Source: Lachnospiraceae bacterium
Lineage (GTDB): Bacteria > Bacillota > Clostridia > Lachnospirales > Lachnospiraceae
Assembly (NCBI GenBank): GCA_017424235.1
Contig: JAFPAQ010000030.1
Span: 1-33,015 of the forward strand
Reading direction: 5' to 3'
DNA: 33,015 bases
Every line of letters starts with the position of its first letter. The first letter of the stretch is position 1. A program made the translations under genes and the position numbers. This document shows positions 3,033 through 25,297 of this stretch, in pieces. The notes under the pieces are model-generated. The model did no database searches, was not told the origin of the DNA, and saw only the letters and a list, made by a program, of their open reading frames with translations.

Positions 3033-3113
3033 TTCTTCCTCCATTCCGAAGTGTTTGTAAGGATTATAAATACTACCTTGCAATACTTCTGTATCCATCA
3101 TATTTTTATTTTT

Positions 3114-3155
3114 AAAAATTAAAAAGCCTCTAATATTATATTACAGCTTTTAATT
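3114..3155 (-). terminator. Probable terminator of the four-gene cassette
   Basis: On the minus strand AAAAGC and GCTTTT form a six-base-pair core extended by an AATT/AATT pairing with one bulged T. The loop is about 18 bases and is followed by TAATTTTT. It lies between the last gene of the unknown cassette (ends 3191) and purC, which argues for separate transcription of the two. The stem is A/T-rich and only moderately convincing. Confidence 0.5.
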
Positions 3156-3190
3156 ATCCTACCGTAATAATAATACCGAGACTTTTGTTT

Positions 3191-4381
3191 TTATGCAAGT
3201 GCTTTTTCGTAATCTGATACTAAATCAAGAATTTTCTTGGCATATTCAGGATATTTGTTAACAATGTCTTTAACCTCATCCTGTGCATCCTGTGCCATTC
3301 GTGCATTATATTCCATTCTTTTTCTTAATTTCTGTCGTCTTAAAATAAGATTATGCCTGATTTCAACCATTTCCTTATTGTCAATAAGAGCCTGAGCCTG
3401 ATGCAGCCAGATATCAGGATCCTGAATATTGCTTTTTCTTAAAAGTTTGATAAGTGATGCCTGATTATAATCCATATCCTGTCGCATCTGCTCACGCTCC
3501 TGTCTTTGTCTGTTTTCCTCATTGTATTTATCCCACAATGCTTTTAACTCAGTGGAACTGTTGACATTATATTTTACATACAGATACTCTAACAGATTAG
3601 TATTATTTACATATTTTATCTTTATGGAATTTTGTAGCAAAACAAGCTTATTTATCGACTTATCAACCTTTACAAGCTCTTTTTGAGCATCATGATATCT
3701 CACATATACAATGGTCATGGTGAATGCTGCCACAAGAATAGCAATCCAATACCCAACTGAAACATCAATTTTCCATGCTGCTCCAACTATGGCAAGTACC
3801 ATAATCAAAAAACACATTGAACCAACGCATATAGCAGTTATCCACTTCATGTTCGTTTGATTACTCTCTATCTCATTTCTTCTAAAACGATATGCATGCC
3901 TCTCGCCTTCAAGTCTTCCCAGATCCTTTTTTACCAATACCTGATAATCCTCTGCTTCTTTGAGTTTATTATATGCTTCCGGCATATACTGCTCAATCTT
4001 TTCCATTCTGGCATAATCTTCCTCAGACATTACACTATGCTTCTTATATATCTTTTCTTTATTATTCTCCAATTCAATAATTTTTGATGCAAAATCACGT
4101 ATTTGCTGTCTGGTTTCTTTTTCAAGTGAATCAACCTCCTCCATATCAGTAAGATATGATGTAACTAAGTTATACTCACCATTTAAAGTATCAAGCTCCC
4201 TTGACGCCTCTGCCATCTGTTCAAGACATGCTGTAACATACTCTTCTCTTTGCTGATGATCATGTATATCAACATCATCACGATTTATAGCCTGTTCACA
4301 CCATTCATCAAAACCAGATTCGTCCTGTTCTGTATTCCTTCTCTTTTGTGTCCATTCCTTGATTTTAGATAATAACCCCAT
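3191..4381 (-). CDS. Uncharacterised coiled-coil protein with a hairpin of two membrane helices
   Basis: I do not recognise a characterised family. The 396-residue protein has no signal peptide. Residues about 45-175 are highly charged and heptad-rich and should form a coiled coil. Two adjacent hydrophobic helices follow, about 179-202 and 206-227, separated by only a few residues, so both ends are likely on the same side of the membrane, most simply the cytoplasm. Residues about 230-250 and 280-396 are again charged and helical, ending in a lysine/arginine-rich stretch. It is the last gene of a four-gene run behind a large repeat protein, an Hsp70-like ATPase and a TPR protein, 41 bases after the TPR gene. 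Its likely role there is as membrane anchor; that is inference from architecture and context. Confidence 0.85.
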   Translation of the reverse strand: MGLLSKIKEWTQKRRNTEQDESGFDEWCEQAINRDDVDIHDHQQREEYVTACLEQMAEASRELDTLNGEYNLVTSYLTDMEEVDSLEKETRQQIRDFASKIIELENNKEKIYKKHSVMSEEDYARMEKIEQYMPEAYNKLKEAEDYQVLVKKDLGRLEGERHAYRFRRNEIESNQTNMKWITAICVGSMCFLIMVLAIVGAAWKIDVSVGYWIAILVAAFTMTIVYVRYHDAQKELVKVDKSINKLVLLQNSIKIKYVNNTNLLEYLYVKYNVNSSTELKALWDKYNEENRQRQEREQMRQDMDYNQASLIKLLRKSNIQDPDIWLHQAQALIDNKEMVEIRHNLILRRQKLRKRMEYNARMAQDAQDEVKDIVNKYPEYAKKILDLVSDYEKALA

Positions 4382-4422
4382 ACTTTTTCCCCCTAAAAAT
4401 GAATTTCAAAAATACATTAATC

Positions 4423-5253
4423 CTACAATGTCTGTCTTCTGTAATCCTGTTTTAAATTCTTTATCAGCTCCCCTGTTTTTATATGATATTTTTCAATTTT
4501 ACCGGATTGTTTAAGGTAGCTCAAATCTTCCAAAAGCCTTCTTTCCTTTGATGTCTGCCACTTATTATCAACCTGAATAAGTAATTGTTCTACCTTTTCA
4601 AACTCTTCAGCCCACTCTGAATTTCCCCTTATAAATGAACCATACGCATAATCAGACATGCACTTTCTCTTTGAAAGAATATATGCAACCCGCGTCTTCT
4701 TATCAGGTTTTAATTTATAAGACTTCATGTAGTAATCTGCTGCCTGTTCATATGCAAAATCAATTGCATAAATTGATGCAATATTATAATACATCTCTGC
4801 TCGCGTTTGCATATTTTTGGATGATGTGAAATCGAGTAATTCAAAATATAAAGTTAATGCCTGCCTGAATCTTCCACTGCGGTAGAGATACTCTGCCCTT
4901 TTTCTATAACGCTCAGGCATGCTAAGATTCGCCTGTTCTTTTAGTATCCTGTCTATCTTACGTATAGTTTCCTCATCATACATCTGAGTCCTTTCAAGAA
5001 CAGTTGATACAAAAACAGCTATTGAAACATGTTTTCTAACATAAATTTCAAGTTCTTGTGCAAGTTCCTCAAGCCCACATTCTTCTTTTATCCAGACTAC
5101 CAGTTCCATTGTAACCATTGAATCATCAAGAATATGTACTTTATCCATAAAATAATAGCACAATTCTTCAATAGAATATATATACACATCTGAAAATTTT
5201 AAATAAAATGGATTCTCTGCATAATTTCCTATACATAAACATACATTATTCAT
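4423..5253 (-). CDS. Uncharacterised TPR-like helical protein
   Basis: A 276-residue protein without membrane segments. The middle (about residues 115-210) has TPR-like helix pairs: RKRAEYLYRSGRFRQALTLY, then AEMYYNIASIYAIDFAYEQA followed by ADYYMKSYKLKPD, with the small and aromatic residue spacing of tetratricopeptide repeats. The first about 100 residues, starting MNNVCLCIGNYAENPFY, are not a repeat I recognise. The frame is open to a TTG at 5274, but the ATG at 5253 has AGAGG six bases upstream and is preferred. It lies 65 bases after the Hsp70-like gene and 41 bases before the coiled-coil membrane protein gene. TPR proteins commonly act as adaptors, including for Hsp70s, so a partner role is plausible but not shown. 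Confidence 0.85.
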   Translation of the reverse strand: MNNVCLCIGNYAENPFYLKFSDVYIYSIEELCYYFMDKVHILDDSMVTMELVVWIKEECGLEELAQELEIYVRKHVSIAVFVSTVLERTQMYDEETIRKIDRILKEQANLSMPERYRKRAEYLYRSGRFRQALTLYFELLDFTSSKNMQTRAEMYYNIASIYAIDFAYEQAADYYMKSYKLKPDKKTRVAYILSKRKCMSDYAYGSFIRGNSEWAEEFEKVEQLLIQVDNKWQTSKERRLLEDLSYLKQSGKIEKYHIKTGELIKNLKQDYRRQTL

Positions 5254-5318
5254 TAAATGCCTCTTATAAATCAAATTAATTATTTATTTGTAACTATTCC
5301 ATATCTTAATTGTTGCAT

Positions 5319-6680
5319 TTATTCTATCGCTTCTATAGGTATACGTTCTTTCCACACCTGGCCTGTTGAAGGAAACATTTCTCCAAACCCCTTATCAACT
5401 ATTTCTATATTGATTGACTTTGAATCGTTCATGTAAAACTTCAGTCCAACTCTATTGGTTTTGTTCCCCCTGACTTTTAAGCCTTCAAGTGATATCTGTG
5501 CAACCCTTGTTCTTCCTCCATCAACAGGCGTGATAACAAGATTTATAACATTATTTTTAACCAGCATAACATCAAAATTCTTATTTGCATCATACCAGTT
5601 AGTACCAGCATCCAAAATTGGGAAATATATTTCTTCCTGTCCTCTATCACATTTCATGCCGATATTAGCGCGAAGTTTATCGTCAGAAAGATAAACATAC
5701 GATGTAGATAATGTAGATGCAAGCATTTTTTCGCGCGCACCATAACAAGCTCCCTTACTAAAAAGATTATTTCCCTGAAAAACCCTTCTGCCATGGCACA
5801 TGTACTTTAATGACTCTTTACACCATTCTTTTGAAAAGAAATCTCCCAACAAAAATATTGATGTGATATTTTTTTTGTAGCATTGTTTTTCCAATATATC
5901 AAGCAAAATAGCATCTAATCTTTTATAAAGCGCCTGTCTGCTTTCCTCTGTCATCTCTTTTGTATCAGGCATTTTCATCTGAGGGAAAGAATCAGTGTCT
6001 ATAAAACATGCAATAGGATTAGTCTGTCTGTTAACCTGAAAATCATAACTGAGTACACCACTTTTCCTATAATCATATAAAATTACATCATGTATCCACA
6101 TTTCTTCAGGCTGATGTATTATATATTGATAAAAACAGTCTTCATGGCTTTGAAAGCATATCTGTACTTTCCTATAATACATACTGTCCATTGCATCTTT
6201 TATCATTTTCATCATCTCAGGCTTCATTTCCTTCAGTGTAAATGCAATACACGAAATATCATCCATAGAAATATATGCTCCTAATAAAGCCAACGCCTTT
6301 CTTATATATATGCCCAGCAGCATATCCGGCTTATATTTTACATCGCCAACCTCTATGGGAGTATTATATCTGGCATTAAGAACAATATCCTCTATAAGTA
6401 TTCCTCTGCCTTCTTCAGATGCCTTAACAGCATCCCTGCCGATAAGCCAACATGATTTTTTCTCTTCATCAGCATTTTCTAATGCAGCAGCTTTATCATT
6501 CAGTCTGCATAATACTGTAGGTATATCATATTCTTCTTCACCCATTACCTGACTAAATGTCTCAGGCATGCTCTGGTCAATTCTACAGTAACTGATTTGC
6601 GAAAAATCATTTTCCAAGTCAAAGCCGACTACAATTTTATTCTTTTTGGTAAGTTCATCGAATGCCTTATCAATCATCAT
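5319..6680 (-). CDS. Divergent Hsp70/actin-fold ATPase-like protein (DUF5716-like)
   Basis: A 453-residue protein that I read as a distant Hsp70 relative. Residues 17-31, VVGFDLENDFSQISY, resemble the phosphate-1 motif of Hsp70 (VVGIDLGTT...). Residues 199-212, VILYDYRKSGVLSY, sit where phosphate-2 is expected but lack its glycines. Residues 274-316 fit the adenosine motif and following helix: ITSIFLLGDFF, then NNLFSKGACYGA, like VVLVGG...DEAVAYGA. After the ATPase part, residues about 355-435 resemble the Hsp70 substrate-binding beta domain: ISLEGLKVR, then VGLKFYMND and INIEIVDKGFG. No helical lid follows. The frame is open to 6737, but ATG 6680 has GGGG ten bases upstream and follows the previous stop by 28 bases. 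From memory, databases call such proteins DUF5716. The beta-domain match is by eye. Confidence 0.8.
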   Translation of the reverse strand: MMIDKAFDELTKKNKIVVGFDLENDFSQISYCRIDQSMPETFSQVMGEEEYDIPTVLCRLNDKAAALENADEEKKSCWLIGRDAVKASEEGRGILIEDIVLNARYNTPIEVGDVKYKPDMLLGIYIRKALALLGAYISMDDISCIAFTLKEMKPEMMKMIKDAMDSMYYRKVQICFQSHEDCFYQYIIHQPEEMWIHDVILYDYRKSGVLSYDFQVNRQTNPIACFIDTDSFPQMKMPDTKEMTEESRQALYKRLDAILLDILEKQCYKKNITSIFLLGDFFSKEWCKESLKYMCHGRRVFQGNNLFSKGACYGAREKMLASTLSTSYVYLSDDKLRANIGMKCDRGQEEIYFPILDAGTNWYDANKNFDVMLVKNNVINLVITPVDGGRTRVAQISLEGLKVRGNKTNRVGLKFYMNDSKSINIEIVDKGFGEMFPSTGQVWKERIPIEAIE

Positions 6681-6708
6681 TAATATCAATCCCCATTTCT
6701 GAGCATAA

Positions 6709-9700
6709 TTAAATAACCCTGAATAACTCACGCACACAGAAATCCTGATATATATATTCCTCAGAAAGCTGTTCAGACGTCATTTCATCCTGTAATTCAA
6801 TACTGGCTATAATATCATTAAGCTGTGCAAATCTTCCACTCATAAGTCCTTCGTTCTCTAACTTTTCATTATGCACATCTCCTAAAAGAGTATCACTTTG
6901 TGTAACACTCTCTTCTTCATATCCATCATCAGTAACATAATCCTCTGTAATATAGTATTGAAGTGCCTCTCCATAAAATAACTGAAATACACACACATAT
7001 ATACCTTCAAACATTTCATGCATGTCCTCTATATTATATCTGTCAGTTTCTTCAACAGAAACAGACTTTGAGTGTTCATAAACATTACAATCAGATGGAT
7101 CAAAGAGTTTTTCATCATCCTTTAATGCATTTTCTCTACTAAAGTCACCTAACACCTTAGCGTCCGGGGTACTTGTATCAAATTTGTTAAAATCTTCATA
7201 AATATAATGAATCTTAACTCTTGTTCCAGGCACTGTTCTATATTCAACAAAAATTCTGTCTTTGAAATAATGTAACTCAGGTATGTCCTGTGCAAGCTTT
7301 TGAAAAAATGGGAAATAGATATCAAGTCTCAAAAATTCACATATAAGTTCAGTAATAGTTTCTTTAGGAATATTCTTCCTGCTTTGTGGATTTTCTGACC
7401 AGTATCTTATAAGTGCCAGTTTTGAACACTTATCCTGAATACCATTTACAGCATAGTTTTCATACATCTTATCAAACAGACCTTCATGTATTATTGCATC
7501 ATTTACAAAATAATCATAGGCTGCTTCCTGTAAAAGTTCATCTACAAGCTCATAATCGTATTCTTCGTACTGAGAATACTCAAGTATAAGCAAATCCTTT
7601 TCAGGTATAACCACATGGCAATAATGTATCTGTTTTAATATTCTGTACATTATATCACAGGTATCTAATTCAAGTTCTATTGCAGACTTCCAAATATGTC
7701 TAAGATCTGTTACCTTCCCTTCATAATGCATCATCAAATATGTCAAAATCACTTCATCATATTTCATGTTTTTATAAATATAATATGATACATTTATGAG
7801 AAATTCATCCGGTGCATAGTCTTTGGTAATAATTCTCTTGCTTATAAGACGAGCAACTGCTTTAGGTTCAACATTAGCTAAGCCATAATCTTTTATCCAC
7901 TGATATGCCTTTTCAAACATACCTCGCGAAATAAGATATTTTATAAACTCAGCCCTTTCATGACGTTCCATCTCATCTGCATCCATCTCTTCAAGAAAAC
8001 CATCAAGCTCACCTATCATATCATTGTCATAATAATACCTTAAAAGTCTTGTTCTTATTTCCTTCTTAAAGCCTTCAATTACCTGTGGAGACTGTGCAAG
8101 ATTTTTATATCTTTTCAAATTAGAAGAATTTATTGTTATATAGTTTTTGTCAAGTTCACATAAATATATATCAAAACTTAATCGTCCCTGCATACAATCA
8201 GAAACATAATCAACCATTTTTGACGTATCCATTAATTGAATATCCAAAAAGCCGACACTTTGTGTAAACCTGTTTCCGTCATCATCCTGTAAAAAGAGTT
8301 TATATTCATTTCCATAAATTGGTGCCATACAAACGCCATCAACCACCGGATAAGTACTTTCTCCATTTACCTTCTCATGCATAACAACTACCGACTTGAT
8401 ATTCTTGTTATCCAAGGATATTTTATGCATAAACAATAATGGTGCAAAAGTATATGCTGTATCCGATGTAAGCATTTGTTTTACAAGAACTTTTTGATAA
8501 ATATATGCCAGATTTTCATTTATTCTGCCTTGTTTTATCTGCTCTATAACAAATCTTTCGATTGCTATCTTGTAGCTTTGCTCAATATCCGGATACCTAT
8601 CACTGTTCATCAGCACATATGCATATAAAAAGGCATTCTTATCATATTCCAAAGTACTTTGATATGCAAAATACAAAAGCACCATTTTGGGTATCTCAAA
8701 TTCGGTATTACTATTTTTTTTCTTTCCAAAAAGATCAACAGCCTCTACATCCAAAGACATCATATAATACTCATATAATTTAGTAACCCTGACAGAATAT
8801 TCAACTCCTAATGCATACCATTTAAAGTATTCAGCTCCCTGTTTATCTCCTAAAATCAGCAACTGACATATAGCTGCTATTGTCTGGGCAGATTTATGTA
8901 TTTTATATACCTCACATAAGGTTATAAATAAAATAGGTGAAAATTCTTTTTTACGTGCTGTAAGATACTGCATTTGATCAATAATTTCCGGACTAAGTAC
9001 TTTTCTTCTGGCACCAAATAACAATACCTGTTCTTCAAACTTATCAAGCTTAAGCAACATTTTGGGATTGTTATTTAACATAAGAAAGGCTTCGCAATAT
9101 ATAAGAGGACTTGTACATCCCATATCATACATATCTTCAAGAAAGCTCCACTTATTATCTAAATTTCTATCAAAATCTTTTTCAAGGTTAAACAGCATCA
9201 GTCCAAGTAACCAGTTTTCCTTATCATTTACATATGCTGTATCAATTTCATCACAAACTGTCTGAATGTATATATCTTCCTGATTAAAAAGTGTAGTAAC
9301 ATACATACAATAATATTTTAATATATTATCTGCCTTTTCTTTTACTATTCTTTCCTCCGTATTATCAAGATACCATTTTGCTTCATTATATCGTTCCTTA
9401 GCTAAAAGTAACTCTGCATAATACAGTTGAATGAGTATATCATCTTCATCAAGGGTTCTGAGCTTTTCAACAATTGTACCTGCTTTATCAATCCATAATT
9501 CCCATGATATGTTTTTAAGTTTAAAATCAATATAATTTTTTACTAACTCAGCTAATAATGTTCTTTTTGTTCTCTTATAATCTCTTCTATCAACGTTATC
9601 TTCCATAACAATCTCTATTGGAAGAGTATATTCATTACATGCATCACTAAATATTATTTTGCCGGTATTTATTCCATTATGCAACTTCTGTGCATCTATA

Positions 9701-10437
9701 AACACACTAAACTCATACTTGTTATTTTCAAAATCATCACTTGTTATCAATTCTGTACAAGGCTGTAAAAAATCTCCATAGGCACACACTTTGAGTTCGG
9801 AATATCCCCAGGTATTTCTGGTTATATTCGTTGTCTTATACATGCTATCCTCTATATCTTCAAGCCAGAAACCACTTATGTCAAAATCATAGATAATTGG
9901 AGATTTCTTATTCATCTCTATAAGAAATTCTTCTACATTTTGATTATTACCATAATTCTTTGAAAATCCTACATATGAAAGATATAAGTTTTTGTCACTT
10001 TTTTGAAAGATTTCAGCAAAATCCGGAGAATAGAACAATTCAACAGCCTCCTGCCAGTTAGCCTGTGCAAGATTAGTGAAATGAAATAAGTTTTTAATTT
10101 GTCCAAGGGAACTATGCAATTGGGGTTTTTGAACTGTAATACTGTAAGGAATCGTATATTCACCATAGTTACTCAATATAGTAAATTCACCTTTTATATG
10201 GCTGCCGGTTTCTATTCCATTACTATCAAACCTGTACTCTACCAAAAAAACCTCACCATTAAAGCTTAGTTTCACAAGCTGCATTCTTGTATCGGAAGAG
10301 TAAATCCTGCATTCTGCATTTTTATTATTTGCATATATCCTAAAATGTCCCTCATAAACTTCATTATGCTTAATATCTATTTCAATGTTTTGGCAGGAAA
10401 AGCCTAAATGACGCATCTGTTCCCTGTTTTCTTGCAT
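6709..10437 (-). CDS. Large uncharacterised protein with duplicated beta modules and helical repeats (DUF5717-like)
   Basis: A 1242-residue protein with no signal peptide or membrane helix, so cytoplasmic. Two similar beta-rich modules, about residues 15-103 and 182-278, each end in a related pattern (IKGEFTILSNYGEYTIPYSI and NTGKIIFSDACNEYTLPIEI), which suggests an internal duplication. From about 285 to 690 the sequence is helical and TPR-like, for example YYAELLLAKERYNEAKWYLD. A second beta-rich stretch lies at about 690-770, then another helical array to about 1080, and an acidic C-terminal tail. The start ATG has GAGG ten bases upstream. It is the first and largest gene of the cassette and stops 28 bases before the Hsp70-like gene. 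I recall such proteins as DUF5717. Function is unknown; size and repeats suggest a scaffold or client-binding platform. Confidence 0.85.
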   Translation of the reverse strand: MQENREQMRHLGFSCQNIEIDIKHNEVYEGHFRIYANNKNAECRIYSSDTRMQLVKLSFNGEVFLVEYRFDSNGIETGSHIKGEFTILSNYGEYTIPYSITVQKPQLHSSLGQIKNLFHFTNLAQANWQEAVELFYSPDFAEIFQKSDKNLYLSYVGFSKNYGNNQNVEEFLIEMNKKSPIIYDFDISGFWLEDIEDSMYKTTNITRNTWGYSELKVCAYGDFLQPCTELITSDDFENNKYEFSVFIDAQKLHNGINTGKIIFSDACNEYTLPIEIVMEDNVDRRDYKRTKRTLLAELVKNYIDFKLKNISWELWIDKAGTIVEKLRTLDEDDILIQLYYAELLLAKERYNEAKWYLDNTEERIVKEKADNILKYYCMYVTTLFNQEDIYIQTVCDEIDTAYVNDKENWLLGLMLFNLEKDFDRNLDNKWSFLEDMYDMGCTSPLIYCEAFLMLNNNPKMLLKLDKFEEQVLLFGARRKVLSPEIIDQMQYLTARKKEFSPILFITLCEVYKIHKSAQTIAAICQLLILGDKQGAEYFKWYALGVEYSVRVTKLYEYYMMSLDVEAVDLFGKKKNSNTEFEIPKMVLLYFAYQSTLEYDKNAFLYAYVLMNSDRYPDIEQSYKIAIERFVIEQIKQGRINENLAYIYQKVLVKQMLTSDTAYTFAPLLFMHKISLDNKNIKSVVVMHEKVNGESTYPVVDGVCMAPIYGNEYKLFLQDDDGNRFTQSVGFLDIQLMDTSKMVDYVSDCMQGRLSFDIYLCELDKNYITINSSNLKRYKNLAQSPQVIEGFKKEIRTRLLRYYYDNDMIGELDGFLEEMDADEMERHERAEFIKYLISRGMFEKAYQWIKDYGLANVEPKAVARLISKRIITKDYAPDEFLINVSYYIYKNMKYDEVILTYLMMHYEGKVTDLRHIWKSAIELELDTCDIMYRILKQIHYCHVVIPEKDLLILEYSQYEEYDYELVDELLQEAAYDYFVNDAIIHEGLFDKMYENYAVNGIQDKCSKLALIRYWSENPQSRKNIPKETITELICEFLRLDIYFPFFQKLAQDIPELHYFKDRIFVEYRTVPGTRVKIHYIYEDFNKFDTSTPDAKVLGDFSRENALKDDEKLFDPSDCNVYEHSKSVSVEETDRYNIEDMHEMFEGIYVCVFQLFYGEALQYYITEDYVTDDGYEEESVTQSDTLLGDVHNEKLENEGLMSGRFAQLNDIIASIELQDEMTSEQLSEEYIYQDFCVRELFRVI

Positions 10438-10526: not shown

Positions 10527-10554
10527 ATTATAAGTATAAAACATTTGTTGACAT
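10527..10554 (-). promoter_or_regulatory. Possible promoter of the four-gene cassette
   Basis: A perfect -10 TATAAT (10527-10532) has ATGTCA (10549-10554) 16 bases upstream, matching four of six -35 positions. It lies between the ilvE terminator and the large repeat-protein gene, leaving a leader of about 85 bases. Confidence 0.4.
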
Positions 10555-10570
10555 AAGACAAGAACTAATT

Positions 10571-10605
10571 AAAAACAGTGCACACTAGCAGCATGCACTG
10601 TTTTT
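10571..10605 (-). terminator. Terminator of ilvE
   Basis: A perfect 12-base-pair inverted repeat, AAAAACAGTGCA and TGCACTGTTTTT, with an 11-base loop. It begins 11 bases after the ilvE stop codon and its descending arm ends in TTTTTAATT. Because the arms carry A and T runs it could also work on the other strand, though no gene there needs it. Confidence 0.8.
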
Positions 10606-10615
10606 AATTACATTA

Positions 10616-18918: not shown

Positions 18919-19524
18919 TTATGCATTAATGTTTTCATCATCAGCAACAAGACTGTCTATCAATTCATATATCTCATCTCTTCCCTGCTTTGATTCAGCC
19001 GAGAAAGGAATAACAACAGTACCTTTCTCAACTTCAAGCTTCTGTTTTATGAGTTTAACCTGCTTCTGAATCTGACTTCTGTTTATTTTATCAAGCTTGG
19101 TAGCTATAATAATCGGACTGTAGCCATTTGATAGTATCCATTCATACATCTGCTTATCATTAGCACTTGGTTCATGTCTTATATCTATCAGCAAAAATAC
19201 TGCCTTTAAAACCTTTGACTGTCTAAGATACTTCTCAATCATTTTGCCCCATTTTTCTTTTTCCTGCTGGCTTACCTTGGCATAGCCATAACCCGGAAGA
19301 TCAACAAAATAAAGCTCATCATTAATATTGTAGAAATTAATAGTCTGTGTCTTTCCCGGCTGAGCACTGGTTCTAGCAAGAGATTTTCTATTCATAAGGG
19401 CATTGATAAGAGAGGATTTACCCACATTACTTTTACCGGCAAAGGCTATCTCCGACATCTTATTATCCGGAATACTACTTGTTACACCTATCACAGTCTC
19501 AAGACTAACGTTTTTTATTACCAT
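18919..19524 (-). CDS. engB: Ribosome biogenesis GTP-binding protein EngB/YsxC
   Basis: A 201-residue TrmE-Era-like GTPase needed for assembly of the large ribosomal subunit. GTPase motifs are complete: G1 GKSNVGKSS (residues 30-38), a G2 threonine in SAQPGKTQTINFYN, G3 DLPGYGYAKV and G4 TKLDK. The track of the frame is open to a TTG at 19527, but the ATG at 19524 has AGGAG seven bases upstream. That ribosome site overlaps the lon stop codon (TAGGAG), so translation of lon and engB is probably coupled. lon-engB order is conserved in many Firmicutes. Confidence 0.96.
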   Translation of the reverse strand: MVIKNVSLETVIGVTSSIPDNKMSEIAFAGKSNVGKSSLINALMNRKSLARTSAQPGKTQTINFYNINDELYFVDLPGYGYAKVSQQEKEKWGKMIEKYLRQSKVLKAVFLLIDIRHEPSANDKQMYEWILSNGYSPIIIATKLDKINRSQIQKQVKLIKQKLEVEKGTVVIPFSAESKQGRDEIYELIDSLVADDENINA

Positions 19525-19534
19525 CAATTTTCTC

Positions 19535-21868
19535 CTATAAACTCTCTTTTACAAAGGCTTTGTCAATTACCTGTTCCATACTGTCAACATAAAAAATACT
19601 CATTCCTGACTTAATTTCATTAGAAATCTCATCAACATCTTTTTCATTTTTTGATGGAACAAGCACTGTCTTTATTCCTGCCATTTTGGCTGCTAACAGC
19701 TTTTCCTTAAGCCCACCTATTGGCAGCACTCTTCCCCGCAGCGTTATCTCTCCTGTCATTGCAAGCTTTGCATGAACCGGGATTTTTGTTATTGCTGATA
19801 AAAGTGCTGTTGCCATTGTTATACCTGCTGAAGGGCCATCCTTAGGAACTGCCCCCTCGGGAATATGAATGTGAAAATCATTATCTTTAAAAAACTTAGG
19901 TTTTATATCGTATTTAGGAGCAATGGAACGAATATAACTCATTCCTGTCATTGCAGATTCCTTCATGACATCTCCCATCTGACCAGTAAGTTCTATCACT
20001 CCCTTACCAGGCATTATATTAACTTCTATCTCGAGAGTGTCTCCGCCTACACTGGTCCATGCCAGACCTCTTACTATACCAATATCATCCTTTTCATTAG
20101 CCATATCTGTTCTGTATTTAGGCTTTCCAAGATATTTCTCAAGATTCTGTCCTGTAATCTTTATTGTCTTATTTTTTCTTTCCTGTTTGTCATATTTAAG
20201 AAGCTCTTTTGCAGTTTTTCTGCATATTGTGCCGATATTTCTCTCAAGATTTCTGACTCCTGCTTCCTTTGTATATGACGAAATAATAGCTTTAATCGCA
20301 TTATCACTGATTGTAAGCTGTTTGTCCTTAATACCGTTCTTTTCAAGCTGCTTATCCACCAAATAACGCTTCGCTATATGAAATTTTTCATTAGCGGTAT
20401 AGCTTGTAACCTCTATTATCTCCATTCTGTCCAATAGTGGTCGTGGAATATTGGAAGCATCATTGGCAGTTGCAATAAATAATACCTTAGACAAATCAAC
20501 CGGTATCTCAATATAATGATCCCTAAAATGGCTGTTCTGCTCCGGATCAAGCACTTCAAGAAGTGCAGAAGAGATATCTCCTTTATAATCACTGCTTACC
20601 TTATCTATCTCATCAAGAAGCATAAGAGGATTACCTACGCCCGACTGCTTCAATGCAGCTGCTATTCTGCCTGGCATAGCACCTATATAAGTTTTTCTAT
20701 GTCCTCTTATTTCAGCCTCATCTCTTACTCCACCAAGACATATTCTGACATATTTCTTATTTAATGACTCAGCTATTGATTTTGCAATAGAAGTTTTACC
20801 TGTTCCCGGCGGTCCTACAAGACACAGAATCGGTGCATCACATTTATTTGATAAGCTCCTTACTGCAAGATATTCAATAATGCGCTCTTTTACTTTTTCA
20901 AGTCCATAATGATCCCTGTCTAAAATCTCCTGAGCCTTTTCTATATCATTTGTATCCTTTGTAACCTTATCCCACGGCATATCAAGCAATGTCTCAATAT
21001 ATACTCTTTCTATAACGCTTTCTGAGCTTGCTCCTGCTACCATTTTGAGTCTGGCTATCTCTTTTTTTATCTTTTCCTTAACCTCATCAGAGGCTTTTAA
21101 TTTCTCCAGCTTTTCTTCCAAATCCTGCGTATCAGAATATTGTACCTTATCGCCAAGCTCTTCTTTTATATATTCAAGCTGTTCCCTTAATATATATTCT
21201 TTTTGATTTTTGTCTATTTTTTCTTTGACATTAACTGCAAGCTGGGTTCTTATTGCAGCTATCTGTGCCTCATTCATTATAAGAGTAATCAGCTGTTCAC
21301 ACTGCTCTTTTATATCCTCAATCTCTAAAAGTTCCTGTTTTTGCTCATTTGAAAAAGGAAAATTAATCATTACCTGATTCATAATAAATGAAAGCTTATT
21401 ATCTTCTTCAAAATAGCGTTTAAGCCCTTTTCCAACCTTAGGATAGAATCTTAAATATGCTTCAGCTACCTCTTTTAATGAACGAATCAAAGCCTCTTCT
21501 TCTGCATCTGCTAAATCATCATTTTCAAATATATCCTCAACAGTAGCTTTCAAATATTCTGTCTCCTCTGTATCCAAGCCTATAAGTCTGGCACGACTAC
21601 AGCCTTCAACCATAACACGTTCAATATTGTTTGGAAGCTTCACCACCTGCTTAATAAATGCTACTGTACCAACATCATATAAACCTTGCCTGTCTGGTTT
21701 TTCCTCTTCAATGTCTTTTTGCATTACCAAAAAAATTTTCTGTTCCTCATTCAATGCATATTCTACAGATTTTTTTGATACTTCACGGCTAAGGTCAAAA
21801 TGTATAATCATATCAGGAAGCACAGTAAGACCTCTCAATGCTACCATAGGTAATTCATACTGACTCAT
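19535..21868 (-). CDS. lon: ATP-dependent protease Lon (LonA type)
   Basis: A 777-residue soluble protease that degrades misfolded and regulatory proteins. The N-terminal substrate domain begins [16 protein letters not shown] and a long coiled region lies at about 180-290. The AAA+ module has Walker A GPPGTGKT (352-359), Walker B LMLLDEID (416-422) and an arginine-finger region [11 protein letters not shown]. The protease domain shows DGPSAGITM with catalytic Ser680 and [11 protein letters not shown] with Lys723, matching Ser679/Lys722 of Escherichia coli. There are no membrane helices, so it is LonA rather than LonB. A terminator separates it from clpX upstream, and it appears to have its own promoter, running on into engB and truA. 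Confidence 0.97.
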
Positions 21869-21886
21869 AATAACCTCATTTCTAGC

Positions 21887-21915
21887 TATATAAACAAATT
21901 CTTACACTGTCGCAA
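21887..21915 (-). promoter_or_regulatory. Candidate promoter of lon
   Basis: TTGCGA (21910-21915) and TATATA (21887-21892) are separated by 17 bases, four of six matches each. The -35 lies in a 26-base sequence repeated upstream of tig. The leader would be short, with GAGGT close to the start codon. I see no CtsR or CIRCE operator. Confidence 0.4.
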
Positions 21916-21927
21916 TTTTCTTATAAT
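21902..21927. repeat. Copy A of a 25-26-base sequence shared with the region upstream of tig
   Basis: This sequence (core ACACTGTCGCAA on the plus strand) is found again at 25534-25558 with a single one-base difference in a T run. Both copies lie just downstream of a strong terminator on the minus strand. Confidence 0.7.
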
Positions 21928-21929
21928 TT

Positions 21930-21962
21930 AAAAAGATGATGCCAATAAGGCATCATCTTTTT
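21930..21962 (-). terminator. Terminator of clpX
   Basis: AAAAAGATGATGCC and GGCATCATCTTTTT form a perfect 14-base-pair stem with a five-base loop directly after the clpX stop codon. The descending arm ends in a T run. It separates the clpP-clpX transcript from lon. Confidence 0.9.
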
Positions 21963-21963
21963 A

Positions 21964-23232
21964 TTATCTCGCCTTTTTTTCAAGTCCGGAATGCATTTCG
22001 CGATGCACTATGAAAGGCTGGCTACTTCCTTCTACAGCTTCTTTTGTAATAACACAACTCTCTATTGTATCATCTGATGGAATCTCATACATTACATCCA
22101 TCATAACACTTTCCATTATCGAACGAAGTCCTCTTGCTCCAGTCTTTCTTTCAAGTGCCTTCTCTGCAATTGCTTCTATTGCATCTTCTTCAAAACTAAG
22201 CTTGACATCATCAAACTCAAAAAGCTTCTGATACTGTTTAATAATCGCACTCTTTGGCTCTTTAAGAATACGTACAAGCGCGTCTTTATCAAGACCCTTA
22301 AGCGATACATTGATTGGTACTCTACCAACAAACTCAGGTATAAGACCAAATTTGTTAAGATCCTGTGGAGTAACCTCTTTAAACAATTCACCAAGGTCAC
22401 GTTCTGTCTTATCAACAATGTCCTTATTAAATCCAATAGATTTACGGTCAAGTCTTGATTCTACAATCTTATCAAGACCATCAAATGCTCCACCGCAAAT
22501 AAACAGGATATTTGTAGTATCTATCTGTATCAATTCCTGATGTGGATGCTTTCTTCCACCCTGTGGTGGAACGCTTGCAACAGTTCCTTCAATAATTTTA
22601 AGAAGCGCCTGTTGCACACCTTCACCTGAAACGTCTCTTGTTATAGATACATTTTCGCTTTTTTTGGTAATCTTATCGATTTCATCAATGTATATGATTC
22701 CATATTGAGCACGTTCTACATCATAATCAGCTGCCTGTATAAGCTTTAAGAGAATATTTTCTACATCTTCACCTACATAACCGGCTTCTGTAAGAGTAGT
22801 AGCATCCGCAATGGCAAAAGGCACATTAATAATCTTTGCAAGTGTCTGCGCAAGATATGTCTTACCCGATCCTGTAGGCCCTATCATGATAATATTACTC
22901 TTTTGAAGTTCAATGTCATCCAGGTCTTTTCCACTCATGACACGCTTATAATGATTGTACACAGCAACTGATAATACTTTCTTTGCCTCATCCTGCCCGA
23001 TTACATAATCATCCAGAAATTCCTTTATTTCTACAGGTTTGAGAAGATTTATATCCATACCGCCTTCAGCTGGTTCTTCTTCATACTCTTCTTCAATTAT
23101 GTCCGCACAGATATCTACACATTCATCACAAATATAAACCCCTGATGGACCTGCTATCAGCTTTCTGACTTGATCCTGCGTCTTATTACAAAAGGAACAT
23201 CTTACTTTTCCTTCAGTGCTTTTTCCTGCCAT
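21964..23232 (-). CDS. clpX: ATP-dependent Clp protease ATP-binding subunit ClpX
   Basis: ClpX unfolds substrates and feeds them to ClpP. The 422-residue protein has an N-terminal zinc-binding domain with CSFC (Cys12, Cys15) and CDEC (Cys35, Cys38). Walker A is GPTGSGKT, Walker B is IIYIDEIDK, and the pore loop follows [16 protein letters not shown] fits the region around the IGF loop that docks on ClpP, and EFVGRVPI and [10 protein letters not shown] are sensor motifs. It follows clpP by 37 bases and is closed by a strong terminator. Confidence 0.97.
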
Positions 23233-23269
23233 CGCATTTCTCCTTTTATAAATTTCTAATCATATATTA

Positions 23270-23863
23270 TTATTTAGCTTCCGCCCTGTCTGTGATAACT
23301 CTGTCAATAAGACCATATTCCATAGCCTCTTTAGCTGACTTCCAATTATCACGCTCTGTATCAGCAGCCACTTCTTCATATGGTCTTCCACAGTTTTCTG
23401 CAAGCATTCTGTTAAGCTTTTCCTTAGTCTGAAGAATATGTTTAGCTGCTATCTCTATTTCTGTTGCCTGACCCTGTGCTCCGCCAAGTGGCTGATGAAT
23501 CATGATCTCAGCATTTGGAAGTGCGAGTCTCTTTCCTTTAGTACCACCTGCAAGAAGAAACGCACCCATGCTGGCTGCCATACCGATACAGATAGTAGAA
23601 ACATCACACTTAATATAGTGCATCGTATCATAGATTGCAAGTCCTGCTGTTACTGATCCACCCGGACTGTTAATATACAACTGGATATCCTTGTCTGGAT
23701 CTTCTGCCTCCAAAAATAATAACTGTGCAACCACAAGACTAGCTGTAACTTCATTTACTTCCTCACCAAGGAAAATAATACGCTCTTTTAAAAGTCTTGA
23801 ATAAATATCGTATGAACGCTCTCCACGACTTGTCTGTTCAATGACATATGGGACTAAACTCAT
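23270..23863 (-). CDS. clpP: ATP-dependent Clp protease proteolytic subunit ClpP
   Basis: The serine peptidase chamber used by ClpX and other Clp ATPases. Counting from [10 protein letters not shown] the protein has 197 residues and a catalytic triad at Ser98 (GMAASMGAF), His123 (MIHQPLGG) and Asp172 (DTERDNW), one position off the Escherichia coli numbering. The frame is open to an ATG at 23878, but that ATG lies inside the ribosome site GGAGGT, which is seven bases upstream of ATG 23863, so the latter is the start. It follows tig and precedes clpX in the usual order. Confidence 0.97.
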
Positions 23864-23891
23864 AAACTCTACCTCCATTTCTAAATAATAC

Positions 23892-23921
23892 GCTATATCA
23901 TTACATTATATGATTTGTCAA
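23892..23921 (-). promoter_or_regulatory. Candidate promoter of clpP-clpX
   Basis: TTGACA (23916-23921) lies 18 bases from TATAGC (23892-23897). An alternative -10 TATAAT is at 23905-23910 with a poor -35. The 147-base gap after tig also holds a small inverted repeat, AACCATT/AATGGTT (23973-23994), without a T run. Confidence 0.4.
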
Positions 23922-24010
23922 TTTTATAATAAGACACTTTTTACCTGTATGTTTGAAATGCAGATAAATTGTAACCATTCATAATCCAATGGTTTCAAAA
24001 TCGTACTGTT

Positions 24011-25297
24011 TTATTTCTCTACAGCGTTCTCAATTACAAAATCAACTGCTTTCTTAATTGCAAGATCTTCTTTAATTGCCTTTGTCTCGAACTGGCCAAT
24101 CATCTCTTCAAGCTTAGCAGCTTCCATCTGGTAAGCTTCTGCCATCTTGTTGATTTCTTCTTTGAATTCTTCCTCAGATACTTCAATATTCTCAGCCTTT
24201 GCAACTGCCTCAAGAACAAGTCTTGACTTAATTCTCTTTTCAGCCTGTGGCTTCATCTGCTCAAGGAATGTATCTCTTGAAAGACCTGTGAACTGGAAGT
24301 ACTGGTCAATTGAAAGTCCCTGCATCTGAAGTCTCTGTGCAAAATCATCAGCCATCTGACGCTGCTGAGTTGTTACCATTGCAGCCGGAATATCCATCTT
24401 TGCATCTTCGATAATTGCTTCGATAACCTTATCTTCTTTCTGATTCTTAGCATCAGCTGCTTTCTTATCTTCCAGGTTCTTCTTAACATCTTCTTTGTAC
24501 TCAGCTAATGTATCAAATTCAGATACTTCACTTGCGAACTCATCATCAAGCTCCGGAAGCTCTTTTTCTTTGATTTCTTTGATTGTACACTTAAATACAG
24601 CTGCTTTTCCTGCAAGCTCTTCTGACTGATAATCTTCAGGGAAAGTAACATTTACTTCTACTTCTTTATTGATTTCAGCACCGATTAACTGATCTTCAAA
24701 GCCTGGGATAAATGTGTTTGAACCAATTGTTAATGGATAGTTCTCTCCCTTTCCACCTTCAAATGCAACACCATCTACAAATCCCTCAAAATCAAGAATT
24801 GTCATATCGCCGGCTTTAACTGCTCTGTCTTCTACAGCAATTGTTCTTGCATTGTTTTCTCTTTCTTTGTTGATAGCTTCTTCAACTTCTTCATCAGTTA
24901 CTGTTGTATCAATCTTATCGATTTCGATACCTTTATATTTTCCAAGAGTAACTTCCGGTTTTAAAGCAACCTCTGCTGTAAAAATGAAAGGCTTTCCTGC
25001 CTCTAACTGTACTACATCAATTGTAGGCTGAGAAACTATTTCTTCCTCACACTCATCTACAGCTTTTGCATAAGCTGAAGGAATAACGATGTTAGCAGCT
25101 TCTTCATAAAATACTTCTTTACCATACATCTGCTCAATCATTTTACGTGGAACTTTACCCTTACGGAATCCAGGAACAGAGAGCTTATTCTTGTTTTTCT
25201 GATAAGCCTGCTCAACTGCCTTCTCAAAATCTTCTGCTGCTGCTTCAATTGTAAGCTTAGCCATGTTTCCTTCTAACTTTTCAACCTGTAAACTCAT
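24011..25297 (-). CDS. tig: Trigger factor (ribosome-bound chaperone and peptidyl-prolyl isomerase)
   Basis: Trigger factor binds nascent chains at the ribosome exit tunnel. The 428-residue protein has the N-terminal ribosome-binding signature VPGFRKGKVPRKMIEQMYG near residues 42-60. A FKBP-type isomerase domain follows at about 160-245 (GDMTILDFEGFVDG, then IGSNTFIPGFEDQLIG), and a helical C-terminal chaperone domain comes last. GGAGG lies 11 bases before the start. It is the first gene of the tig-clpP-clpX block, with its own extended -10 promoter. Length and motifs are normal. Confidence 0.97.
   Translation of the reverse strand: MSLQVEKLEGNMAKLTIEAAAEDFEKAVEQAYQKNKNKLSVPGFRKGKVPRKMIEQMYGKEVFYEEAANIVIPSAYAKAVDECEEEIVSQPTIDVVQLEAGKPFIFTAEVALKPEVTLGKYKGIEIDKIDTTVTDEEVEEAINKERENNARTIAVEDRAVKAGDMTILDFEGFVDGVAFEGGKGENYPLTIGSNTFIPGFEDQLIGAEINKEVEVNVTFPEDYQSEELAGKAAVFKCTIKEIKEKELPELDDEFASEVSEFDTLAEYKEDVKKNLEDKKAADAKNQKEDKVIEAIIEDAKMDIPAAMVTTQQRQMADDFAQRLQMQGLSIDQYFQFTGLSRDTFLEQMKPQAEKRIKSRLVLEAVAKAENIEVSEEEFKEEINKMAEAYQMEAAKLEEMIGQFETKAIKEDLAIKKAVDFVIENAVEK

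Follow-up and report, generated by a model that had tools for sequence, protein, structure and literature searches.

We propose, at about even odds and from sequence comparison, that a four-gene cassette in the DNA of a Lachnospiraceae bacterium is what remains of an Hsp70 chaperone complex once its catalytic part is gone, and that it would act as a nucleotide-independent and often membrane-tethered scaffold. The cassette lies in a stretch of 33,015 nucleotides (GCA_017424235.1, contig JAFPAQ010000030.1, positions 1–33,015; this whole stretch is the window, and its own assembly is labelled G000) and consists of four consecutive open reading frames on one strand, separated by gaps of 28, 65 and 41 bases, all of them at the places given in a preliminary description of this DNA:

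6709..10437, minus strand: DUF5717 gene, 1242 amino acids (aa)
5319..6680, minus strand: DUF5716 gene, 453 aa from the ATG at 6680; a longer GTG frame starts from 6737
4423..5253, minus strand: tetratricopeptide repeat (TPR) gene, 276 aa from the ATG at 5253; a TTG frame starts from 5274
3191..4381, minus strand: coiled-coil membrane protein gene, 396 aa

The preliminary description had named the first two families, and Pfam agrees: the DUF5717 protein matches PF18984 (5.2e-276) and PF18983 (4.4e-64) at 918 and 217 bits against a cut-off of 25, and the DUF5716 protein matches PF18980 (1.5e-101) at 340 bits against a cut-off of 34.7. Both are clear members of families for which the Pfam descriptions shown give no function; what is new here is the kinship of DUF5716 to Hsp70 and the operon context.

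The window DUF5716 sequence alone matches neither PF00012 nor DnaK in the PDB, and a profile of Lachnospiraceae DUF5716 proteins matches DnaK at 2.3e-5 over its N-terminal part only (positions 7–135). This profile aligns with that of DUF5716 from other families of the order across nearly the full length (hhalign, 8.7e-44), and the other-family profile aligns over both the nucleotide-binding domain (NBD) and the beta part of the substrate-binding domain (SBD-beta) of DnaK (4e-20); the DUF5716 protein of one other-family locus, L085, matches PF00012 at 1.8e-14. In the profile alignments DUF5716 ends in a conserved C-terminal stretch that matches SBD-beta and leaves no room for a lid. Judged from these comparisons, DUF5716 is an Hsp70 by descent.

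The residues on which an Hsp70 ATPase depends were compared in an alignment of 89 proteins, using residue numbers that we take to be those of E. coli DnaK. The alignment includes three groups of Hsp70 paralogues encoded beside DUF5716 in other families of the order (Hsp70-A, Hsp70-B and Hsp70-VWA, of which A and VWA were defined by length); the incomplete Hsp70 pieces L083_5, L083_6, L087_0 and L093_5 were left out of both the alignment and the tree. K70, T199 and D201 are present in all 48 paralogues and in none of the 41 DUF5716 proteins, whilst E171, likewise found in 48/48 paralogues, occurs in 5/20 DUF5716 proteins of other families and in 0/21 of those from Lachnospiraceae, which have also lost the GGGT motif. 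The spacing between the phosphate-2 and adenosine motifs is 49–67 aa in 21/21 Lachnospiraceae DUF5716 proteins against 122–141 aa in 20/20 others. The roughly 70 missing residues, chiefly 239–276 and 288–311 of the Hsp70-B from L085, map to subdomain IIB through an alignment with the DnaK structure 2v7y, given the IIB boundaries that we presume for DnaK. According to the text available from PMC4753570, subdomain IIB is the target of all Hsp70 exchange-factor families. As read from these alignments, the Lachnospiraceae DUF5716 protein is an NBD without its IIB lobe, followed by an SBD-beta-like end and no lid. Of the earlier reading as a divergent Hsp70-like ATPase, the Hsp70 ancestry stands, whilst the word ATPase is probably wrong given the loss of the catalytic residues and of the IIB lobe.

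In a tree of the same proteins the 41 DUF5716 sequences form one clade (support of 100 in the SH-like approximate likelihood ratio test, SH-aLRT) beside Hsp70-B, with the 21 Lachnospiraceae proteins nested inside it and the protein of L083 (genome G202) as their sister; this tree was made by a quick method with SH-aLRT support only, was rooted by hand on the VWA group, and contains long branches flagged by the tool.

Gene order at 20 loci from other families of the order reveals a larger operon. At 14 of them the genes for Hsp70-A, a GrpE-like factor, DUF5716, Hsp70-B, Hsp70-VWA and the TPR protein follow in this order on one strand, with insertions in L084, L088 and L089 and broken genes in L083 as the exceptions; L087, L093 and L097 extend past the end of the contig or of the stretch taken, and L086, L096 and L100 are dispersed or partial. 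DUF5717 precedes these genes as two genes (about 390 and 900 aa) at 9/20 loci and as a single long frame at 3/20 (L092, L094 and L101, with 1213, 1326 and 1006 aa), the remaining eight showing part of it in view or none; either the gene was fused or split more than once or the single frames are gene-call errors. At L085, Pfam recognises DUF5717 in two genes, HSP70 (6e-78), GrpE (7.1e-11), DUF5716 (2e-33, together with its HSP70 match), HSP70 (2e-63), HSP70 with VWA (8e-92) and TPR (3e-20). The ATPase motifs of all three operon Hsp70s are intact; judged by their length and alignment they have no lid, and one bears the VWA domain in its place. The GrpE-like factor has a long, helical-looking N-terminus; the protein from L099 alone does not match PF01025 at E-values up to 0.1, and a profile of 11 such proteins matches GrpE at 6.8e-6. 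In L102 the membrane protein gene comes directly after the TPR gene. In L083 it comes after the TPR pieces; both the Hsp70-VWA gene and the TPR gene there (5205–8375) are broken into two open reading frames by decay or assembly error. The presence of a GrpE-like factor and three intact-looking Hsp70s in one operon makes the chaperone reading testable. The other-family operon thus shares with the DnaK–GrpE system its intact-motif Hsp70s and a GrpE-type factor, next to a DUF5716 that is Hsp70-derived with an SBD-beta-like end, but differs in having several lidless Hsp70s, one with VWA, and no recognised J domain; Lachnospiraceae differ further in keeping only the degenerate Hsp70, without ATPase residues, IIB lobe or an exchange factor of its own.

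Distribution was assessed in samples of 200 Lachnospiraceae genomes, 116 genomes of the order (11 Lachnospiraceae and 105 others), 196 of the class and 299 of the phylum. Within the order sample the operon GrpE-like factor is found in 50/116 genomes, namely 0/11 Lachnospiraceae and 50/105 others, and DUF5716 is present in all 11 of these Lachnospiraceae. Matching the 105 non-Lachnospiraceae genomes by hand gave 47 with both DUF5716 and the factor and 54 with neither; G205, G246 and G267 have only the factor and G215 only DUF5716, mismatches that could reflect divergence, incompleteness or real loss. The factor was found in 0/196 genomes of the class sample, which holds no known positive, so that the order-sample scan serves as the positive control. 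GrpE and Hsp70 scans of 43 chosen genomes (17 bearers of the operon system, 22 Lachnospiraceae and 4 others without the system) detected a second, operon GrpE above cut-off in 17/17 bearers, 0/22 Lachnospiraceae and 0/4 other system-less genomes; second matches below this standard occur under the cut-off in G046 and G012 and as a contig-end fragment in G000. Among the Hsp70 matches listed, operon-type Hsp70s occur only outside Lachnospiraceae. Relocation of the operon Hsp70s within Lachnospiraceae was considered and rejected: six Hsp70s reach no more than 232 bits against the operon models, compared with at least 753 bits for true members in a leave-one-out comparison. For five of the six the DnaK model gives the highest score, whilst a 785-aa protein of G185 fits Hsp70-B slightly better (104.7 against 96.5 bits); this comparison left out DnaK-grade fragments of G198, G091 and G000.

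The two losses coincide. All 21 genomes with short DUF5716 fall among the 22 that lack the operon GrpE, and every one of the 20 with long DUF5716 carries the factor (17 by the GrpE scan; G208, G211 and G302 by the factor search), which indicates that the IIB lobe and its partner were lost together. Two assembly features were seen during these scans: in G189 (contig C10, 102900–105500; L140) the housekeeping dnaK is spread over several frames in the manner of a frameshift, which probably reflects faulty assembly, and contigs C190 and C252 of G000 (5.22% contamination) carry two DnaK/GrpE pieces, perhaps from a strain mixture.

The cassette belongs to the core gene content of Lachnospiraceae. 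DUF5716 is present in 195/200 and DUF5717 in 196/200 genomes of the family, mostly once per genome. Outside it, DUF5716 reaches into the order (59/116 genomes, 48 of them from other families); the six positive genomes in the class sample (DUF5716, 6/196) and the four in the phylum sample (DUF5717, 4/299) are all Lachnospiraceae. Far from being rare neighbours, DUF5717 and DUF5716 are adjacent in the same strand and order in 117 of the 120 genomes for which both places are listed; of the other three, contig ends interrupt the pair in G009 and G055, and G039 is truly separated, with DUF5717 alone and the DUF5716, TPR and membrane protein genes together elsewhere (L111, L112). DUF5717, DUF5716 and TPR are consecutive at 20/20 Lachnospiraceae loci read, the DUF5716 and TPR genes overlapping by 4 bases at six of them; at L078 a 270-aa open reading frame is inserted between DUF5717 and DUF5716. 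The coiled-coil membrane protein, found in 91/200 genomes, is an optional component: it lies downstream of DUF5716 in 67/68 listed pairs (the remaining pair, in G092, is broken by contig ends), on the DUF5717 contig and strand in 18 further genomes, and was not placed in 5. This conservation of order across genera and families strongly supports the view, put forward in the preliminary description, that the genes form one machine.

The other three proteins offer fewer handles. DUF5717 has an N-terminal part that is beta-rich by eye, followed by a long helical-looking body; PDB profile searches with the whole protein and with its N-terminal part gave no useful match, and a check of the latter for FNIII found no Pfam match. 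The TPR protein shows TPR matches below the Pfam cut-offs (best 3.4e-4, 21 bits against 27) and has a conserved non-TPR N-terminal part, its 276 aa comparing with about 387 aa in the homologue of other families (phmmer homologues, alignment). The fourth protein belongs to no family in Pfam or NCBIfam; its two hydrophobic stretches (177–210 and 205–227, by hydropathy) read as a two-helix membrane hairpin, and a PDB profile search returned weak coiled-coil matches, three keratins (best 0.0024) and one YopN (0.09).

All four genes are under purifying selection at a fast rate. Compared with a genome of the same genus, the window proteins are 54–65% identical, against 84–90% for purF, purC and ilvE, with a proportion of non-synonymous differences (pN) of 0.23–0.29; synonymous sites are saturated (pS 0.81–0.91), which leaves pN alone usable for an estimate of dN/dS type. 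Across the family the median identities are 24–28% for the four proteins, 69–85% for purF, valS and purB and 31% for purC. DUF5716, DUF5717 and TPR show co-varying distances over and above what DnaK explains (partial r 0.62, 0.49 and 0.70; 0/5000 permutations each) over 20 loci; L080, whose dnaK and grpE matches fall on separate contigs, was left out, and the DnaK of L078 is a 395-aa part.

The evolution and anatomy of the cassette are well supported; what follows on its function and client we infer from them. An ancestor-type operon would have encoded DUF5717, three active Hsp70s, a GrpE-like factor, DUF5716 and the TPR protein, of which Lachnospiraceae keep DUF5717, DUF5716 and TPR, in about half of them together with the coiled-coil membrane protein, and appear to have lost the three active Hsp70s and the exchange factor. 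DUF5716 would no longer cycle nucleotide, and its retained Hsp70-like C-terminal part may hold a client or a fixed partner; DUF5717 may be the platform that carries DUF5716, the TPR protein an adaptor, and the hairpin protein the element that ties the assembly to the membrane. The assembly could then be a static holdase or assembly scaffold for clients common to almost all Lachnospiraceae. In a fuller picture, which we advance more tentatively than the remainder reading itself, this Hsp70 machine would have evolved to do without nucleotide and would serve as a static chaperone or assembly scaffold in nearly all members of the family, a core component of their cell biology.

Several observations weigh against a non-catalytic, membrane-tethered scaffold. 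Lachnospiraceae DUF5716 proteins keep the first aspartate of phosphate-1 (19/21), D194 (11/21) and the first glycine of the adenosine motif (21/21), with which nucleotide binding without hydrolysis is possible. No J domain was recognised by Pfam among the 8 system proteins of L085. Two rather complete genomes, G029 (93%) and G091 (98%), lack both large genes, so the system is not indispensable everywhere, and G098 (99% complete) has DUF5717 with no DUF5716 match; the remaining genomes that miss one of the two are 67–70% complete. The membrane protein was not found in 109/200 genomes, so tethering is not general. Finally, the rate co-variation can stem from lineage-wide acceleration together with saturated distances.

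The alternative that survives best, which we regard as a realistic minority option, is a role for DUF5716, TPR and DUF5717 in recruiting the general DnaK/GrpE pair; this pair would supply the ATPase cycle that in the ancestor came from the operon's own Hsp70s. All 43 genomes scanned have Hsp70 and GrpE matches, the best of them of DnaK and GrpE grade (with dnaK split in G189), and TPR proteins often dock chaperones. Neither a J domain nor a known DnaK-binding motif was recognised, and the IIB lobe is lost from DUF5716, though this bears on DUF5716 itself and not on DnaK.

A conflict or defence module of the GAP1-N2 GTPase-centred type is improbable. The parts list is similar: in the text available, Kaur et al. 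2020 (PMC7159879) describe GTPase-centred neighbourhoods with HSP70, GrpE and an FNIII protein fused to DnaJ or TPR, some with a second HSP70 lacking the peptide-binding domain. Within their Hsp70 part, two L085 Hsp70s also match the candidate PADLOC family PDC-M61B (3.9e-11 and 2e-7), and the L085 TPR protein matches the PADLOC PrimPol model at 4.4e-6 over its TPRs. However, Pfam recognises no GTPase among the 8 L085 system proteins (neighbours at L085 and L099 were judged by eye), and PADLOC recognised none of the four window proteins, nor the L085 versions of DUF5717, DUF5716 and the GrpE-like protein. Unlike variable defence loci, the cassette is near-universal and ordered, with no plasmid match for DUF5716; and it differs from GAP1-N2 systems in being order-restricted in the samples used here and in its degenerate Hsp70 with lost motifs.

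A little less probable still is that DUF5716 is a divergent ATPase that remains active, which would make the cassette an ordinary ATP-driven, membrane-tethered chaperone: the surviving phosphate-1 aspartate and adenosine glycine would suit it, but every Lachnospiraceae DUF5716 examined has lost all four of K70, E171, T199 and D201 as well as the GGGT motif and the IIB region. The actin-like filament or cytoskeletal scaffold that the preliminary description had allowed for appears very unlikely; Hsp70 and actin share a fold, but the specific kinship of DUF5716 is to Hsp70 with its SBD-beta-like end, the nucleotide pocket and IIB are gone, and relatives adjoin a GrpE-like factor. That the genes are chance neighbours without joint function, as the optional membrane protein and the detached DUF5717 of G039 might hint, is contradicted by the synteny counts and can be dismissed.

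Lachnospiraceae rank with the most common bacteria of the human gut, and the proposed remainder of an Hsp70 complex is kept in nearly all genomes sampled from this family, with no described function found in a literature search; such wide retention suggests that its role is an important one. No paper naming DUF5717 or the Pfam accessions was found, DUF5716 is mentioned once in the text available of one paper titled on another subject, and the text available of PMC11019930, on DnaK duplication, has no mention of 'Lachnospir' or 'Clostridia'. The series from a full multi-Hsp70 operon to the remainder with a dead paralogue would allow the role of the Hsp70 fold without ATP to be tested, and could show which part of a chaperone complex is truly indispensable.

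Within the window the cassette is flanked by an ilvE-type branched-chain aminotransferase gene upstream and purC downstream, with the following signals at its borders:

10566..10610, minus strand: intrinsic terminator of the upstream ilvE-type gene, 20-pair stem, −25.4 kcal/mol
10527..10554, minus strand: promoter-like site ATGTCA-16-TATAAT from a consensus scan, between the terminator and the DUF5717 start
3114..3155 (tested as 3105–3165), minus strand: possible weak terminator before purC, z −0.85

Terminators had been described on both sides. The upstream one is strong (z −7.0, 0/200 shuffles as good) and insulates the cassette, whilst the downstream hairpin, earlier called probable, is shuffle-like (39/200 shuffles equally good) and absent from the terminator scan list; with so weak a signal, termination ahead of purC is not established. 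The promoter scan found 53 sites in the window against a shuffle mean of 59.7, so no excess over chance. An Rfam scan of the window gave nothing at gathering scores, and an NCBIfam search of the four proteins added nothing beyond Pfam.

Downstream neighbours are purC, purF or purB at 9/20 loci and valS at 6/20, with valS also following in L083 outside the family; a tie between the cassette and purine genes was rejected, as the neighbours vary and probably reflect old gene order. Further upstream on the same (minus) strand, the window carries a proteostasis cluster at 18919–25297 (trigger factor, ClpP, ClpX, Lon, EngB/YsxC). All or part of tig-clpP-clpX-lon-engB lies within 30 kb upstream at 4/20 other Lachnospiraceae loci with flank (L081 being without one), with the full set in L067 and L082, four genes in L065 and two in L066, and at 0/15 other-family loci; the link is suggestive and was not used as evidence.

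A plasmid collection yielded no DUF5716 match and IMG/VR scans found no DUF5717 relatives. Four records labelled as phage match DUF5717, and the two inspected (L119 and L120; MT835486.1 and MT835988.1), faecal scaffolds named 'Bacteriophage sp.' in GenBank, both carry DUF5717, DUF5716, TPR and the coiled-coil protein, whose gene is cut at the record end in one of them. A mobile-element reading was rejected, these two scaffolds being most likely bacterial DNA in virome assemblies; in one of them the cassette is followed by valS, at 72–82% identity.

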